A stretch of 48,277 nt of DNA from Psychrobacter sp. (GTDB taxonomy: Bacteria; Pseudomonadota; Gammaproteobacteria; Pseudomonadales; Moraxellaceae). Positions 17,052 to 25,920 of the stretch are shown here, in pieces (position 1 is the first letter of the stretch; each line of letters opens with the position of its first letter). A program made the position numbers and the translations under genes. The stretch covers positions 1 to 48,277 of the forward strand of contig NZ_JAGLBC010000005.1 of assembly GCF_018260395.1 (NCBI RefSeq), written 5' to 3'. The notes beneath the pieces were generated by a model. That model worked only from the letters and a program-made list of their open reading frames with translations. It ran no database searches and was not told the origin of the DNA.

Positions 17052-17065
17052 AAAATTGGATGCTT

Positions 17066-17938
17066 ATGACCACTCAAGTTACTCATGCTGTTATCCCTGT
17101 TGCCGGCTTCGGTACGCGTATGCTACCTTTATCAAAAGCAGTTCCTAAAGAACTATTACCTTTAGGCAATCGTCCGGCAATTCATTATGTCGTAGAGGAG
17201 GCTATCGCTGCTGGTATTAAAAATATTGTTTTGGTTGGACATGCTCAAAAAAGCGCCATTGAAAACTATTTTGATATGAATGCTGAACTTGATAATCAGT
17301 TGCGGGCTAAGGATAAAGTTGAAATAGCTGATAGCTTAAACTGGTTGCCAGAAGATGTATCTGTTTCTATGATTCGTCAGGGGAAGCCATTAGGTCTGGG
17401 TCATGCAGTGCTTAAGGCGCGCCCTATTGTTGGAGACAGTCCATTTGCTGTTATGCTTCCTGATGTGGTATTAAATCCATTTACTACCAAGATGGATCAA
17501 GACAATTTGGCTTACATGATTCATGCTTTTGAGCAAACCCATCATTCACAGATCTTAGTGAGTCAAGTTGATGATAAAGACGTACATAAATATGGTATTG
17601 CTAAGTTAAAAGATGCTGATCAATTGTCTCAGCTAACTGGGGATAAAAATGCTAACTTTGCAGTTGCAGGTTTTGTAGAAAAGCCGCAGTTAGCAGATGC
17701 GCCTTCTAATTTAGCTGTGGTCGGTCGTTATGTATTTACCTCAACTATATTTGATTATTTGGCGAACACTCAACCCTCAGTCGGTGGTGAAATTCAGTTG
17801 ACGGATGCCATTGATGCGTTAATAAGCACCCAAGGGGTTGATATCACGACTATGTTAGGGGACAGCTTCGACGCTGGAGATATGACCAGTTATATGCAAG
17901 CTTTTATCTATTTTGCTCAGCAGCAACTATCAGCTTAA
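17066..17938 (+). CDS. galU: UTP-glucose-1-phosphate uridylyltransferase
   Basis: VIPVAGFGTRMLPLSKAVPKELLPLGNRPAIHYVVEEA; alternative ATG at 17060. Confidence 0.96.
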   Translation: MTTQVTHAVIPVAGFGTRMLPLSKAVPKELLPLGNRPAIHYVVEEAIAAGIKNIVLVGHAQKSAIENYFDMNAELDNQLRAKDKVEIADSLNWLPEDVSVSMIRQGKPLGLGHAVLKARPIVGDSPFAVMLPDVVLNPFTTKMDQDNLAYMIHAFEQTHHSQILVSQVDDKDVHKYGIAKLKDADQLSQLTGDKNANFAVAGFVEKPQLADAPSNLAVVGRYVFTSTIFDYLANTQPSVGGEIQLTDAIDALISTQGVDITTMLGDSFDAGDMTSYMQAFIYFAQQQLSA

Positions 17939-18020: not shown

Positions 18021-18056
18021 GTCAGATTATGTCATCATTTATTGAGCTATCCTATT

Positions 18057-18146
18057 ATGTCAAAAGAAGCTATGTCAAAAGAAGCTATGTCAAAAGAAAC
18101 TAGTGTAAAACAAAGCATGTCGACACAAACTAGTATAAAACAATCC
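18057..18146. repeat. 15-bp tandem repeat array (6 units) encoding MSKEA-MSKEA-MSKET-SVKQS-MSTQT-SIKQS at the pgi N-terminus
   Basis: ATGTCAAAAGAAGCT x2, ATGTCAAAAGAAACT, then three diverged 15-mers. Confidence 0.9.
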
Positions 18147-19832
18147 AAATTAAATAATAAAAGCACCAATGCCTTACCAACCCAGTTACCACAATGGCAA
18201 AAGCTACAACAATTGGCCCAACGCTCCTGGTCTTTAACTGAGTTATTTAATACTGAAATGGATAGAGCAAAAAAATACAGTGTCAGTGCTGAAGGCATTT
18301 ATTTTGATTATTCTAAGCAGTGTCTTGATTCGGATGTAAAAAAGCAGTTAATGGCATTGGCAAATGCTTGTAACCTACAACTAAAAATAAATGCGCTGTA
18401 TCAGGGTGAAAAGGTAAACAGCAGTGAGGATAGAGCGGCTTTACATACTGCCCTTCGCCTTCCTAAAACGGCAAAACTGTCCCATCAAGGTATTGATGTG
18501 GTGGCAGAAGTGCATGACAGCCTAGATAAATCTGCTGATTTAGTAGACAGAATACGCAATGGTATCTGGCGTGGATACTCTGGTAAGGCTATTACTGATG
18601 TGGTAAATATCGGAGTTGGTGGGTCTGATTTGGGACCTGTAATGACCAATACAGCGCTTGATGAATGGGCAGATAGCGACATTCAAGTGCATTTTGTGTC
18701 CAACATGGATGGTACTCAGTTAGGCAATTTATTAGAGCGTTTAAATCCAGAGACTACCTTATTCATTATCTCGTCTAAATCTTTTGGCACCGTCGACACC
18801 CTTTCTAATGCAGAGACGGCTAGAGCTTGGTTGCTAGAGACTGGGGCCAGTCAAGCGACGTTGCTACGCCGTCATTTTATTGGTATTTCTGCCAATACTA
18901 AAAAGGTCAGTGCTTGGGGAATTGCCAAAGAGCATCAATTAAAGCTATGGAATTGGGTGGGGGGCCGCTTTTCAATGTGGTCTGCCATTGGCTTGGCTGT
19001 AGCAATCCGTATTGGCACTGAGCGTTTTAATGAAATGCTACAAGGTGCTTATGCCATGGATCAGCATTTTTTAAACACTGAGTTTGAGCATAATTTACCG
19101 GTACTATTAGGTCTGATAGGCGTTTGGAACAGTACTTTTTTGGATATAAATGCCCATACTGTCCTACCTTATGATGGCCGTCTTAAGTATTTCCCAAGCT
19201 ACTTGACCCAACTTGAGATGGAAAGTAATGGTAAGTCGGTCACCCATCAAGGCCAAGCGGTTGCTTATGCAACTTGTCCTATCCTATGGGGTGAGATTGG
19301 CTCTAATGCTCAGCATGCATTCTATCAATTACTGCATCAAGGTACGCAGAAAGTCTCTTGCGACTTTATAGCCTGTGTCAATTATTATCAAGACTCTGAA
19401 TCTAACGAATTAAAGCGCCAGCATGCCCTGTCGTTGGCCAACTGCTTGGCCCAAAGCCGAGTCTTAGCGTTTGGTAACGATGCCTTAGTAGCTAAACCTG
19501 ATCAAGAAGTGTCTGATCTTGATAAGTTTAAGCGCTATCGTGGTAATCAACCGTCTACCACTATTTTGTTAGATGAGTTGACACCAAGAAGTTTTGGGTC
19601 GCTTATCGCCTTGTATGAACATAAAGTGTTCGTTATGGCCAGCATTTGGGACATTAATCCATTTGATCAATGGGGGGTGGAAATGGGCAAAAAGGTGGCG
19701 GATGAGGTGTTTGCGCATATCAATCTTGCAAAATCATTCTCGAATTCTTTGGAAGGTGCCGATCCTGAAGTAAACTTTGATAGCTCTACCCAAGCTTTAT
19801 TACAGCATATTAATAAGAAAATTGAAGTTTAA
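18057..19832 (+). CDS. pgi: Glucose-6-phosphate isomerase
   Basis: GGSDLGPVMTNTAL, SSKSFGTVDTLSNAETA, WDINPFDQWGVEMGKKVA; ATG at 18057 preferred over upstream TTG 18042; N-terminal extension is repeat-derived. Confidence 0.95.
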   Translation: MSKEAMSKEAMSKETSVKQSMSTQTSIKQSKLNNKSTNALPTQLPQWQKLQQLAQRSWSLTELFNTEMDRAKKYSVSAEGIYFDYSKQCLDSDVKKQLMALANACNLQLKINALYQGEKVNSSEDRAALHTALRLPKTAKLSHQGIDVVAEVHDSLDKSADLVDRIRNGIWRGYSGKAITDVVNIGVGGSDLGPVMTNTALDEWADSDIQVHFVSNMDGTQLGNLLERLNPETTLFIISSKSFGTVDTLSNAETARAWLLETGASQATLLRRHFIGISANTKKVSAWGIAKEHQLKLWNWVGGRFSMWSAIGLAVAIRIGTERFNEMLQGAYAMDQHFLNTEFEHNLPVLLGLIGVWNSTFLDINAHTVLPYDGRLKYFPSYLTQLEMESNGKSVTHQGQAVAYATCPILWGEIGSNAQHAFYQLLHQGTQKVSCDFIACVNYYQDSESNELKRQHALSLANCLAQSRVLAFGNDALVAKPDQEVSDLDKFKRYRGNQPSTTILLDELTPRSFGSLIALYEHKVFVMASIWDINPFDQWGVEMGKKVADEVFAHINLAKSFSNSLEGADPEVNFDSSTQALLQHINKKIEV

Positions 19833-19926
19833 GTTTAGGTTTAAGTTGTCTCAGTGAAGTTTATAGTACCAAAAGCCCTAACGATAAAAACAATAAAAAC
19901 AATAAAAAACTATAAGGATGAATCTC

Positions 19927-21264
19927 ATGGTTATGCCAGCCAAAACTATGAACAATAACTCTGCTGTAGGCAATCATTGTATCATAGTAGGTCATTCTAT
20001 TGATGCCATTACCACAGCAACAGTCATGGTAAGTCTCGGCAATAGAGTAAGCTTATATGCCAATTCACAAGCGCTGGAGAATACACTAGCCAATTACAAC
20101 TTTGAATATCAGCAACAGGCTTTATGGCAACTGTACTTAAGCCAGCACAGCATCGTTGTAGAGTCTATCCCCGAACAAGCAAGTGCAGTTTTTGGTGAAG
20201 AGTCTGCTAATTTATACTGGTTATTTCATAGTGATCTTCCGGCTTCTTGGCAAAAGTCCAAAGATAATAAACCCAGTTGGGTGGTTCATCTGAATGAAAG
20301 CCAAACTCCCAGTCAGATACCGCTGATTTTAAGTGGTATCAGTACCTTGGGGGTATTTTCAGATATTGCCACTTATTGTCAACGTCCTTGGGTATATTAT
20401 GTGCCGTTTGTGTTCCTACAAGATGGCAACACCTATCCTTCAATGTTGTCTCCGAAGTTGTGGTTGATGGGTGAGAAGACCAAAGATTCTATCGATAAAG
20501 TTGCAGTGTTACAGCCCTTGATAGCCCAAGCACAACAAAGCTATATCAGTGATATTGCTACCATTGAGTTCTCACGTAGTGCCATTATGAGTATGCTAGC
20601 CACGCGAGTCAGCTTTATGAATGAATGGTCGAGATTGGCAGATTATAAAGGTGTCGACATCCAAGAGGTAGCAAATATTATGGGCTTGGATACACGAATA
20701 GGGAGCAGTTATCTTAAAGCTGGTTGGGGCTTTGGAGGGCGAACTTTACCGGCAGAAATCAAGGCGTTACAACAGACATTAGACAATACTCAGGTTGATC
20801 ATCATCTTATTCATGCGGTAAATCTAATTAATAATGACCAAAAAGAGCTGATTTTCCGTAAGTTTTGGCAATATTTTGATGGGGCAATCGAAAACAAGCA
20901 GGTCACTATTTGGGGTGCGAGCTACAAAACTGGTTCGGGCCGTACTTCTGAAGCAGCCATACATCCTTTATTACGTCTAATATGGTCATATAATATCACC
21001 ACCCATGTCTATGCCCTAGAAGCCGAAAGCGAGCTGGCAGGCTTATATCCTGAACAGCCATTGTTAAAGTTCATCGCAATTTCAACCGAACAGTTGGCTA
21101 ATAGCGATGCCTTATTTGTGTTGTCATGGCCAGGTACTAAGCGTTTACCTATTAGTGCTATTAATGAAGTGGTGGTGCCGGTGTTTGATGCTCAAAATGC
21201 CTTTAGTAAGACTCAGATAGACTCTTTAAAAGGAGATTATCAAGGTATTGGCCGTCGCAAATAG
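19927..21264 (+). CDS. Degenerate UDP-glucose/GDP-mannose dehydrogenase family protein (putative pseudoenzyme)
   Basis: UGD-like architecture (LATRVSFMNE, GLDTRIGSSYLKAGWGFGG.., IWGASYKTGSGRTSEA) but catalytic Cys replaced by Thr (GFGGRTLPAE) and no GxGxxG; ATG 19927 with AAGGA RBS (ORF track start 19918). Confidence 0.85.
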   Translation: MVMPAKTMNNNSAVGNHCIIVGHSIDAITTATVMVSLGNRVSLYANSQALENTLANYNFEYQQQALWQLYLSQHSIVVESIPEQASAVFGEESANLYWLFHSDLPASWQKSKDNKPSWVVHLNESQTPSQIPLILSGISTLGVFSDIATYCQRPWVYYVPFVFLQDGNTYPSMLSPKLWLMGEKTKDSIDKVAVLQPLIAQAQQSYISDIATIEFSRSAIMSMLATRVSFMNEWSRLADYKGVDIQEVANIMGLDTRIGSSYLKAGWGFGGRTLPAEIKALQQTLDNTQVDHHLIHAVNLINNDQKELIFRKFWQYFDGAIENKQVTIWGASYKTGSGRTSEAAIHPLLRLIWSYNITTHVYALEAESELAGLYPEQPLLKFIAISTEQLANSDALFVLSWPGTKRLPISAINEVVVPVFDAQNAFSKTQIDSLKGDYQGIGRRK

Positions 21265-21560: not shown

Positions 21561-23021
21561 CTAGGCAACTTGCGCGCCTTGCTGACCTAACCACTGTTTA
21601 ATCTCTTCAATTTTTTTAGTTAGTAAGGCTTCATCACCTTTGGTTTCTATGTTAAGACGAATTAAAGGTTCGGTATTAGAGGTGCGAAGATTAAAGCGCC
21701 ATTCACTAAAATCTAGGCTCAGACCATCTAAGGTGTTTTTGTTAGGGTTCTGCGATTTAAAATATTCTTCAATACCCGTGATAATCTCATCGCTACTTAG
21801 ACCAGTTAGCTTAAAGTTAATTTCGCCAGAACTTGGATATGCGCTGATACGTTCATTCACCAACTGACCTAATGACTTACCTGAAGTGGATAATAGCTCA
21901 ATGGTTAGTAACCAAGGAATCATGCCGCTATCACAATAAAAGAAATCACGGAAGTAGTGATGCGCACTCATTTCGCCCCCATATACTGCTCCGGACTCGC
22001 GCATTACTTGCTTGATAAAAGAGTGACCTGACTTGCTGATAACCCCTTTACCGCCAGCCTCTTCGATAAGGGCTTCAGTGTTATATATCACACGAGGGTC
22101 ATAGACAATGGCGGCTCCTTCATGCTTTTGCAAAAACGCCTGAGCCAACATACCAACCACATAGCTACCTTCTACAAACTCGCCATTGGCATCAAATAAG
22201 AAGCAGCGGTCAAAATCCCCGTCAAAAGCAATGCCTAAATCCGCGTTATTTTTAATAACCGTTTGTTTGGTGGACTCTCGATTGGCAATAATCATTGGGT
22301 TAGGGATGCCATTAGGGAAGCTACCATCTGGCGTATGATGCACTTTAATGATTTCAATAGGCGCACCACTTTGTTGCAGGCGTTGCTCGATTAGATCTAC
22401 AGTAGGAGCCGCACTACCATTTCCTGAATTAATAACAACTTTTAATGGTGTGAGTTTATCGGTGTCAATAAAGCTCATAAGATGGTCGACATACGCCGTT
22501 TTATCAAATTTATCTATTACTTGTCCTGTGTTAGAGATAGCGGCAAAGTTGCCTTGTTCTGCAAGTGCCTGAATATCGGCCAATCCTGAATCCGCACTTA
22601 TCGGTTTTGACTGGTCACGTACTAATTTTAAGCCATTGTAATTAATAGGGTTGTGGCTGGCAGTAACTTCAATACCGCCCAAGGCTTGGTAATGACTAGT
22701 TGCAAAGTAAACCTCTTCGGTACCCGTCATACCTAGGTCTATCACATCAACGCCTGCATCGACAATGCCGCGAATAGTAGCCTGCTTTAAGGTTTCACTT
22801 GAATCTCGAATGTCACAGCCAATAACGATGCTATTTTGGACGCCATCACTAACTTGGTTTTGGGTACGCTGACCGGCAAGAATCTCGGCAAAAGCACGAC
22901 CAATACGGTAGGCAATGTCTTCATCCAAATTAACCCCTAATTCACCACGTATATCGTAAGCTTTGAAAGAAGTAATAGAACGATGTGCAAAATTATCAGT
23001 AGCAGTAGGTGTTGTAGTCAT
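21561..23021 (-). CDS. manB: Phosphomannomutase/phosphoglucomutase (ManB/AlgC family)
   Basis: FKAYDIRGELGVNLDE, VTASHNPINYNGLKLV, GIAFDGDFDRCFLFD, RTSNTEPLIRLNIE. Confidence 0.93.
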   Translation of the reverse strand: MTTTPTATDNFAHRSITSFKAYDIRGELGVNLDEDIAYRIGRAFAEILAGQRTQNQVSDGVQNSIVIGCDIRDSSETLKQATIRGIVDAGVDVIDLGMTGTEEVYFATSHYQALGGIEVTASHNPINYNGLKLVRDQSKPISADSGLADIQALAEQGNFAAISNTGQVIDKFDKTAYVDHLMSFIDTDKLTPLKVVINSGNGSAAPTVDLIEQRLQQSGAPIEIIKVHHTPDGSFPNGIPNPMIIANRESTKQTVIKNNADLGIAFDGDFDRCFLFDANGEFVEGSYVVGMLAQAFLQKHEGAAIVYDPRVIYNTEALIEEAGGKGVISKSGHSFIKQVMRESGAVYGGEMSAHHYFRDFFYCDSGMIPWLLTIELLSTSGKSLGQLVNERISAYPSSGEINFKLTGLSSDEIITGIEEYFKSQNPNKNTLDGLSLDFSEWRFNLRTSNTEPLIRLNIETKGDEALLTKKIEEIKQWLGQQGAQVA

Positions 23022-23145: not shown

Positions 23146-24414
23146 TTAACTATAACCAAACACATCTCTTGAGTAAACCTTATCAGACACATCTTCTAGT
23201 TCGGTATGCCAACGGTTGGCAACAATCAAATCATTACTTTGCTTAAATTGTTGCAGATCATTGATAACTTGACACCCTTCAAAGGTATCCTCGACTAAAG
23301 CCGGCTCATAAATGGTAATACTCATACCATGCTGCTTTAAGGTTTGTATCACATCAAGTACTGCCGAATCTCTAAAGTTATCAGCGTCTTTTTTCATACT
23401 AAGACGATAAATTCCCACTTGGCTAGGATTTTTGTCAATAATTTGGCGAGCGATAAAGCGCTTTCTAGTATTGTTGGCATCGACTACTGCGTGGATTAGA
23501 TTGGCAGGAATACCGGCATAGTTGGCTTGAAGCTGTTGGGTATCTTTGGGTAGACAGTAGCCTCCGTAGCCGAAAGACGGGTTATTGTAATGCTGACCAA
23601 TACGCGGATCTAATCCTACGCCTGTGATGATAGCTTGGCTGTTTAATTGGTGCTTTTCAGCAAAACTATCTAACTCGTTAAAAAATGCTATACGAGTGGC
23701 CAAATAACTGTTGGCAAAGAGCTTCACAGCTTCAGCTTCAGTAGGCGGCATCATCAATGTAGGCGCATCTTTTGACTCACTTGCTTGCTGATATAGTCTC
23801 ATCAATGCTTGTGCCAATACTTGCTGCGACTCTGTAGCACCAACAATGATACGCGAGGGATGCAGGTTATCGTATAAAGCCTGGCCTTCACGTAAAAACT
23901 CAGGCATAAACAAAATTTGAGTATCAAATTGCTGACGCATACTATCCGTAAAGCCAATAGGAATTGTAGACTTGATAACAATAGGCACTTGACTGTTTTG
24001 AGCCCGAACCGCGCTGATACTCGCTTCTACTGAAGAAGTATCAAATTGTCCCGAAGCCACATCATAGTTGGTTGGGGTAGCAATAATAACCAAGTCACTT
24101 TTTTCATAAATACCTTGGCCGTCTATCTGGGTTTGAGAGCTGGCTTGTAGATTCAGTTGTCTATTGGCCAAATAGTCACAAATCTCTGAATCTTGTAATG
24201 GCGATTGATTTTGCTGCAGCTGGTTAATCTTAATCTGATCAATATCAAATAGCATCACTTGGGTATTTAAATGAGCTTGAGCCAACAAAATGGCATTCGA
24301 TAGTCCCACATAGCCTGCGCCAATGACCACGATTTTTGATAATTTAATGGTTGTGGATTGGTCATATAAGATTTGTGAGTTAGAAGTAGTTAAGTTGTTT
24401 TCAGAGTCGCTCAT
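23146..24414 (-). CDS. ugd: UDP-glucose 6-dehydrogenase (canonical)
   Basis: VVIGAGYVGLSNAILLAQ, MPEFLREGQALYDNLHPSRIIVG, AEAVKLFANSYLATRIAFFNE, GYGGYCLPKDTQQL; start trimmed to MSDSENN (ORF track 24525). Confidence 0.95.
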   Translation of the reverse strand: MSDSENNLTTSNSQILYDQSTTIKLSKIVVIGAGYVGLSNAILLAQAHLNTQVMLFDIDQIKINQLQQNQSPLQDSEICDYLANRQLNLQASSQTQIDGQGIYEKSDLVIIATPTNYDVASGQFDTSSVEASISAVRAQNSQVPIVIKSTIPIGFTDSMRQQFDTQILFMPEFLREGQALYDNLHPSRIIVGATESQQVLAQALMRLYQQASESKDAPTLMMPPTEAEAVKLFANSYLATRIAFFNELDSFAEKHQLNSQAIITGVGLDPRIGQHYNNPSFGYGGYCLPKDTQQLQANYAGIPANLIHAVVDANNTRKRFIARQIIDKNPSQVGIYRLSMKKDADNFRDSAVLDVIQTLKQHGMSITIYEPALVEDTFEGCQVINDLQQFKQSNDLIVANRWHTELEDVSDKVYSRDVFGYS

Positions 24415-24590
24415 ATCTTTATTCTTATATATTTTAAAATTATTGGGGCTGCGTATAATCTGTTTACTATATATCAGTTTACTATATTCTGATGAGCTCA
24501 TAATTACAATTCTAAAATGATACACTGCTGATATGACAGATTAAAAACGGCTATATTAGCGAATAACTAAAACACTGAGAGTAAGGTGCT

Positions 24591-25508
24591 ATGCATAATA
24601 AGCAAAATAACCAGAGTAAGCCAAATACCACCGATATAAATGATAAACAAGATACACAAATTATTGCACCAATACCAATACTTGGTATACCTGAGCCTAC
24701 AACGCGCATGGAAGATCTAGTAGCGCTGATGGCACGACTGCGTGCTGACTGTCCTTGGGACATTAAGCAAACCAATCACAGCCTAATTCCCTATGCTATA
24801 GAAGAGGCTTATGAGCTAGCTGAAGCAATACAAGAGGGTGATATCGAGGACATTAAAGGTGAGTTAGGTGATGTGCTGTTGCAAGTCATCTTTCATTGTC
24901 AAATTTATGCCGAGCAGCATCAATTTGATTTAGCTGATGTGGTGTTTACTTTGCAAAGTAAACTGATTCGTCGCCACCCGCATGTATTCGAGGCAGAACA
25001 ACTGCCCGATGAAGCAGCAGTGAAACAGCGCTGGGATGACATAAAGGCTATAGAAACTACAGAGCGAGAGCGTCGAGGCAAACCAAAGCGTAGCTTAGAT
25101 AAAGTAAAGGCGGGTAGCGCTTTGATGCAAGCGCAAAGCCTACAAAAAGCAGCCAGTAAATTGGGGTTTGACTGGGATGGGGTAAGTGATGCGATTGAGA
25201 AATTAGAAGAGGAAATTGCTGAGTTGAAGCAAATCCTTCCAAGCGACCTTCAACTTGAGAACGAAAAACTAGATGAGGCGTTAAAGCTTGAGCTTGAAAA
25301 AGAACTGGGGGATTGCATTTTTGGTTTGGTAAATGTCGCCCGCAAGTTAAATCTTGATGCGGAGGCAGCGACATTGACTTGCGTGCATAAGTTCCGGAGT
25401 CGCTTTGGTTTTATTGAAGAACAACTGGCCAAGCAAGGAAAAACAGCTGAAACCAGCACCCTTCAAGAAATGGATACCTTGTGGGAGCTTGCCAAACAGT
25501 ATGAGTAA
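24591..25508 (+). CDS. mazG: Nucleoside triphosphate pyrophosphohydrolase MazG
   Basis: MARLRADCPWDIKQTNHSLIPYAIEEAYELAEAI; ELGDVLLQVIFHCQ; second EEIAELK...ELGD repeat. Confidence 0.96.
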   Translation: MHNKQNNQSKPNTTDINDKQDTQIIAPIPILGIPEPTTRMEDLVALMARLRADCPWDIKQTNHSLIPYAIEEAYELAEAIQEGDIEDIKGELGDVLLQVIFHCQIYAEQHQFDLADVVFTLQSKLIRRHPHVFEAEQLPDEAAVKQRWDDIKAIETTERERRGKPKRSLDKVKAGSALMQAQSLQKAASKLGFDWDGVSDAIEKLEEEIAELKQILPSDLQLENEKLDEALKLELEKELGDCIFGLVNVARKLNLDAEAATLTCVHKFRSRFGFIEEQLAKQGKTAETSTLQEMDTLWELAKQYE

Positions 25509-25920
25509 AACGTTTGGACTAGAGTCTATCCTATTTAGAATTAATACTAAACTGACATGTACGATAGACTATTTATCGAAATTTATTCAGGTATTACTAT
25601 TATTGTTGAGCCTGCTTCTAACTAACCAGGCATTAGCTAAACAATGTTTTGCGGATTCAAATCAAGCATATAGATATCTTGTTGAACAGCAACAAGCTCA
25701 AGAGGCAAATTTAACGGGTAAAAACAAAATTATAGATATCAATCAAGCGACTGAAGCTGAATTGACTACCTTAAAGGGCATTGGTAGTAACAAAGCTCAA
25801 CAAATTATCTTATATCGTCAGGCTTTTGGAGAGTTTAAGCGTATAGAGGAATTGGCCAAAGTAAAAGGAATTGGCGAGAAGACCGTCGCTAATAATAAAG
25901 CGCGTCTGAAAGTTGATTAA
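25501..25920 (+). CDS. ComEA-like helix-hairpin-helix DNA-binding protein with N-terminal signal/TM segment
   Basis: IDINQATEAELTTLKGIGSNKAQQIILYRQAFGEFKRIEELAKVKGIGEKTVANNKARL; ATG overlaps the mazG stop. Confidence 0.88.
   Translation: MSKTFGLESILFRINTKLTCTIDYLSKFIQVLLLLLSLLLTNQALAKQCFADSNQAYRYLVEQQQAQEANLTGKNKIIDINQATEAELTTLKGIGSNKAQQIILYRQAFGEFKRIEELAKVKGIGEKTVANNKARLKVD

Follow-up and report, generated by a model that had tools for sequence, protein, structure and literature searches.

A gene next to pgi and near galU in Psychrobacter encodes a protein that is predicted to keep the fold of UDP-glucose dehydrogenase (UGD) but has lost the catalytic residues of this enzyme. The protein, here called X, belongs to an old and strongly conserved family that sits beside the genes making UDP-glucose and that includes, as identified by gene order and one marker, the gene annotated "ugd" in the capsule locus of Acinetobacter. 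This widespread annotation is therefore probably wrong, and X is more likely a sugar-nucleotide sensor or regulator than an enzyme. While the pseudoenzyme assignment is held with very high confidence, the mechanism is inferred and we consider it about as likely as not.

Sequence and predicted structure of X

The window analyzed is the whole 48,277-nt stretch of Psychrobacter sp. contig NZ_JAGLBC010000005.1 (assembly GCF_018260395.1). X is encoded at 19918-21264 (+), an ORF of 448 aa without internal stop. A first-pass annotation, made from the sequence alone, had described a full-length UDP-sugar dehydrogenase paralog with a dismantled active site starting at 19927, which is the fourth codon and also an ATG; residues 1-19 are of low confidence and the true start may be one of the internal ATGs. 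What it observed in the sequence proved correct, as every motif it reported was found. The Rossmann motif GxGYVGL reads GHSIDAI (19990-20010) and PEFL(K/R)EG is replaced by PFVFLQDG (20404-20427), with loss of the Glu. The motif ExxKxxxNxxLAxxxxFxNE reads EFSRSAIMSMLATRVSFMNE, with Arg in place of the catalytic Lys at codon 220 (20575-20577) and Met in place of the catalytic Asn at codon 224 (20587-20589), and GFGGRTLPAE carries Thr276 (20743-20745) in place of the catalytic Cys. By comparison, the Arg of DxRIG (codon 260, 20695-20697) is invariant in X and in canonical UGDs, and the Lys of the FKP/SYK motif (codon 337, 20926-20928) is K or R in all homologues. These substitutions are not due to chance, since the same ones are fixed in orthologues.

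A search against the three Pfam domains of the family, which had been suggested as a check of the assignment, found the central domain PF00984 (E=3e-22; 78.9 bits against a cut-off of 25.4), a C domain below its cut-off (E=0.059) and no match to the N-terminal NAD domain PF03721. NCBIfam TIGR03026 scored 120.6 bits against a cut-off of 189.8. Structure prediction, also proposed in advance, gave a confident full-length model with AF2 (pLDDT 94.2, pTM 0.89), and the best PDB matches returned by Foldseek are all UGDs (3gg2, 2y0c-e; TM about 0.8). The three-domain UGD fold is therefore predicted to be complete although the family signatures are eroded.

X lies immediately downstream of pgi (18042-19832, +; glucose-6-phosphate isomerase), which is preceded by galU (17060-17938, +; UTP-glucose-1-phosphate uridylyltransferase). 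This pgi is read from a TTG, with an N-terminal extension of 40-45 residues (18042-18170) that holds an MSKEA-type tandem repeat (MSKEAMSKEAMSKE); orthologous Pgi proteins align only from about residue 40, and the start, or a repeat expansion, is thus in question. On the opposite strand are the gene that had been called manB (21561-23021, -), by Pfam a phosphoglucomutase/phosphomannomutase (manB/pgm), and a canonical ugd with all motifs (23146-24525, -), closest to the E. coli-type model PRK15057; this ugd had been given as 23146-24414. Further along, a short ORF at 25405-25920, with an uncertain start codon, overlaps the end of a mazG-like gene and has a ComEA-like helix-hairpin-helix C-terminus.

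Distribution of X and loss of the catalytic residues

Orthologues of X were found in all 36 Psychrobacter genomes searched, in 76 named loci of Psychrobacter and Moraxella, in most Moraxella and across Moraxellaceae (genera, families, genomes and loci are designated below by g, f, G and L numbers). In the large genus g36 the order is galU-X-pgi with pgm on the opposite strand, which is the published layout of the Acinetobacter K locus (PMC3628348, PMC9676051), and X is the gene called "ugd". Among 176 genomes of this genus searched for the OXA-51 forward primer, diagnostic of A. baumannii, one (G235) matched exactly and one with one mismatch. G235 carries X between galU and pgi, with GFGGENFSHD in place of GYGGSCFPKD; the identification as A. 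baumannii rests on this marker and on gene order. A plasmid search with the Acinetobacter gene found nothing.

Among 164 distinct Moraxellaceae homologues with a readable motif, the Cys position holds T (92), N (44), S (24), A (2), H (1) or G (1) and never C. The second and third Gly of GxGYVG, the acidic residue after beta-2 and the AVGTP loop are also gone or altered in nearly all members, while 22 canonical UGDs keep all of these. Outside Psychrobacter/Moraxella, the residues that hold the UDP-sugar in UGDs are mostly kept (ExxK Lys, DxRIG Arg, FKP Lys, DGRN Arg and Asn). In Psychrobacter/Moraxella, the pocket was rebuilt with new and equally fixed residues, with R220 in 102 of 102 rows, M224 in 98, T276 in 91 and E280 in 102, and with DGRN changed to D-A-Q/K-N, so the ligand may have changed. 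The former pocket is nonetheless the best conserved part of the protein in this group (mean identity 0.907 against 0.733), although the positions compared were chosen from motif knowledge and include glycines. Whether X binds a UDP-sugar is left undecided by these data, as the binding residues are retained in most branches but partly replaced in Psychrobacter/Moraxella.

The fixed new pocket residues (R220, M224, T276, E280, GSGRT) could indicate that X is still an enzyme, with a different chemistry that needs neither Cys nor NAD. This is unlikely, because the residue at the nucleophile position differs between branches (T, S, N, G, A, H), as does the Lys/Asn pair, and no shared catalytic set is left. 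It is still less likely that X is an active UGD using Ser/Thr in place of Cys. While the fold and part of the UDP site are retained, the NAD-binding elements and most catalytic residues are lost, above all in Psychrobacter/Moraxella, many members have Asn, Gly or Ala at the Cys site, and the K-locus literature assigns GlcA to other genes (see below). NAD-dependent oxidation of UDP-glucose was not assayed.

Origin and selection

X sequences form one clade nested inside TuaD-type UGDs, and the tree rejects a recent duplication of the neighboring ugd. The term paralog in the first-pass annotation thus needs correction, as X is a separate, older lineage; the E. coli-type ugd belongs to a different subfamily and is in that place in only 6 of the 76 named loci (L001-L003, L006, L007, L051), probably as a clade-specific gain. 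A restriction of X to Moraxellaceae was also rejected. A search of 295 genomes of the order with the X of genus g34 as query brought similar proteins from families f37, f38 and f44, and those read in detail lack Cys (15 sequences) and sit next to galU and/or pgi, as galU-X-pgi in f44, pgi-X in f38 and galU-X without a nearby pgi in f37. Relatives in family f8 (G426, G561) proved canonical. In two f44 genomes (L280, L285; G449, G558) a separate canonical TuaD-type ugd and the Cys-less X lie in one cluster around galU, showing the two gene types side by side.

A further, careful tree placed all 35 X sequences from four families in one clade inside true UGDs, with 100/100 support and in every bootstrap tree, with a stem of 1.43 changes per site. 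Within that clade the Acinetobacter-type and the Psychrobacter/Moraxella members of f1 do not group together, so either the gene moved between families or long branches disturb the inner order; only the single origin of the Cys-less clade is claimed here. Unusually divergent X sequences with long branches were seen in one g36 genome (L188:5001-6257, G083) and in a small Psychrobacter subgroup (L124-L126; G020, G014, G162) (36-38% identity to the window X).

The absence of orthologues, or a dN/dS near 1, had been named beforehand as evidence that would overturn the pseudoenzyme reading, and neither was found. In the five pairs with dS below 1.5, dN/dS of X was 0.065, 0.077, 0.091, 0.097 and 0.134, against 0.066, 0.056, 0.077, 0.055 and 0.118 for pgi in the same pairs. 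X has long stem branches and evolves faster than pgi or galU, about 1.6 times as fast as pgi in Psychrobacter (mean distance 0.41 against 0.25), and one copy (L075, Psychrobacter sp. WY6) appears split by a frameshift, which could be a sequencing error or a recent loss. However, X is under clear constraint, is present in all Psychrobacter genomes searched and has full-length frames in nearly all, so that a decaying pseudogene is all but ruled out.

Genomic linkage with pgi and galU

In Moraxellaceae, X is adjacent to pgi in nearly every locus where both could be read, with 138 loci as pgi-X and 18 as X-pgi, frequently with 4-bp or 1-bp overlaps; the few listed as further apart have ambiguous starts or broken frames. 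Loci overlap between searches and these are therefore not independent genomes. The two opposite orders make a hitchhiking explanation less likely.

Of 249 family genomes, 16 have no X match. Eleven of these have no pgi by protein search, and 9 of the 11 were also tested and negative for Pfam PGI. Four others (g32) have a divergent pgi of about 42% identity. The last, G067, has a pgi remnant directly followed by an X remnant (L217:4056-5111) next to an intact pgm, and a second pgi elsewhere, so this pair decayed together. One Moraxella-group genome, G147, keeps galU but has neither pgi nor X; in most of the others galU is gone too, and the co-loss is thus partly loss of the whole locus. Two apparent exceptions did not hold: in G158, with X but no pgi, the neighboring bases are masked as N, and the hit in G093 is a canonical UGD in an incomplete genome. 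A partial distance correlation of X was 0.55 with pgi, against 0.35 with galU and 0.31 with manB, which gives only modest, non-decisive support.

The first-pass annotation had proposed a regulatory subunit or a nucleotide-sugar sensor for the galU/pgi/manB/ugd pathway, and this interpretation is supported in part: a pseudoenzyme on a UGD fold that is not a decaying gene is supported, whereas a subunit of canonical Ugd or of another nucleotide-sugar dehydrogenase is disfavored and very unlikely. A canonical ugd does lie 2 kb away here, and pseudoenzyme partners of active paralogues are common, but this ugd is clade-specific and 11 of 60 Psychrobacter genomes have X without a nucleotide-sugar dehydrogenase over the family cut-off; for three of these (G004, G009, G022) all candidates were scored, and at least three Psychrobacter genomes keep X with no true nucleotide-sugar dehydrogenase. 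A sensor or regulator for the galU/pgi pathway fits gene order and co-loss and is the best remaining idea, but it is inferred.

Proposed role of X and its implications

Sequence and trees show that an ancestral TuaD-type UGD copy beside galU/pgi lost the nucleophilic Cys, the GxGxxG and AVGTP NAD-binding elements and the acidic residue after beta-2 while keeping most UDP-sugar-binding residues, and that the pocket was then rebuilt in Psychrobacter/Moraxella; purifying selection and the linkage and co-loss with pgi are likewise shown. That X binds a UDP-sugar, most likely UDP-glucose, without oxidizing it is inferred from the retained or newly fixed pocket residues, and that it regulates the Pgi-Pgm-GalU branch by reporting the level of this sugar to the enzymes encoded beside it is a further inference. 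In Moraxellaceae the likeliest target is Pgi, given the co-loss, the overlaps and the distance correlation. Pgi in these organisms mainly feeds fructose-6-P into glucose-6-P, glucose-1-P and UDP-glucose, a direction of use that was not examined here, and X would thus gate carbon into capsule, LOS and other UDP-glucose-derived glycans. There is no direct evidence for ligand binding or for interaction with Pgi or GalU, neither of which was measured, and GalU cannot be excluded as the partner because X sits with galU and no nearby pgi in f37. As a whole, this explanation is about as likely as not.

Two other readings that also accept a pseudoenzyme appear unlikely. X could be a purely structural scaffold or stabilizer that holds Pgi (and/or GalU, Pgm) together without sensing a ligand, as suggested by the translational overlap and constant adjacency with pgi, the invariant fold positions and an N-terminal domain more variable than the rest. 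However, the former substrate pocket is the most conserved part and UDP-sugar residues are retained in most branches, which a mere scaffold would not need. Alternatively, X could bind UDP-glucose but act on another process such as cell division or capsule export, in the manner of UgtP or OpgH. UDP-glucose is a known signal of that kind and the same retained pocket would fit this reading, but the constant linkage is with galU/pgi rather than with division or export genes.

Published data on A. baumannii fit the pseudoenzyme reading and add a phenotype. The K-locus database paper states that galU, ugd, gpi and pgm are in every K locus, assigns glucuronic acid to the extra genes ugd2-ugd5 in 24 loci and expects neutral capsules where only the common genes are present (PMC9676051), as one would expect if the common ugd makes no UDP-GlcA. 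A frameshift or deletion of ugd has been reported to give tolerance to a phage (PMC13340115), and phage-resistant mutants carried insertions in pgm, gpi or ugd (PMC10904470). These mutations may act by polarity on gpi, which lies downstream of and overlaps ugd, and they are the only evidence for a non-catalytic function, which was not measured here; in Psychrobacter, X is last in its run.

If this reading is right, a core gene of the Acinetobacter, Psychrobacter and Moraxella sugar-nucleotide locus is misannotated, and predictions that Acinetobacter can always make UDP-glucuronate from the common K-locus genes, or that this Ugd is a dehydrogenase drug target, rest on a protein without catalytic residues. 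It would explain why capsules with glucuronic acid are linked to ugd2-ugd5, and why a gene with no visible enzymatic role is kept and affects capsule-dependent phage sensitivity. It also makes testable the general question of how bacteria that use Pgi mainly in the gluconeogenic direction set the flow of carbon into UDP-glucose. More tentatively, and somewhat less likely than not, a whole family of proteins annotated as UDP-glucose dehydrogenase, including the "ugd" of every A. baumannii capsule locus and its relatives in at least four families of the order, could be UDP-glucose-sensing pseudoenzymes that control entry of carbon into UDP-glucose at Pgi and/or GalU, and hence a new class of sugar-nucleotide sensor. 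No description of this family, of a UGD pseudoenzyme or of a Psychrobacter UGD was found in the open-access literature, although subscription papers were mostly not covered and prior notice cannot be excluded. While UGDs are a well-known enzyme family, a pseudoenzyme family derived from them has been hidden by annotation, since several members (Acinetobacter-type, g34 and g30) pass the TIGR03026 cut-off for nucleotide sugar dehydrogenase.

Comparison with known systems

The proposed working principle of X, a sugar-nucleotide-binding protein that reports a pathway end product, resembles that of GlmR/YvcK, which senses UDP-GlcNAc and acts on GlmS, and of UgtP and OpgH, which link UDP-glucose to cell size. 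These are unrelated or still-catalytic proteins, homology with X was not tested, and the function of X has not been shown. The E. coli-type Ugd (PRK15057), such as that at 23146-24525, is in the same superfamily but on a separate branch of the tree and has its canonical motifs intact. The TuaD/BceC-type UDP-glucose 6-dehydrogenases (PDB 3gg2, 2y0c-e; NF047673) share with X the fold over the whole length, the central helix, the DxRIG Arg and the FKP-type Lys, and the X clade nests inside this subfamily; X differs in having no Cys nucleophile, in the loss of the NAD site and, in Psychrobacter/Moraxella, in the replaced Lys/Asn pair. Finally, the "ugd" of the A. baumannii K locus (galU-ugd-gpi-pgm; PMC3628348, PMC9676051) is a member of the same X clade in the same locus. 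It has the gene order X-pgi instead of pgi-X, keeps the DGRN Arg and the ExxK Lys, and is still listed in the literature as UDP-glucose dehydrogenase.
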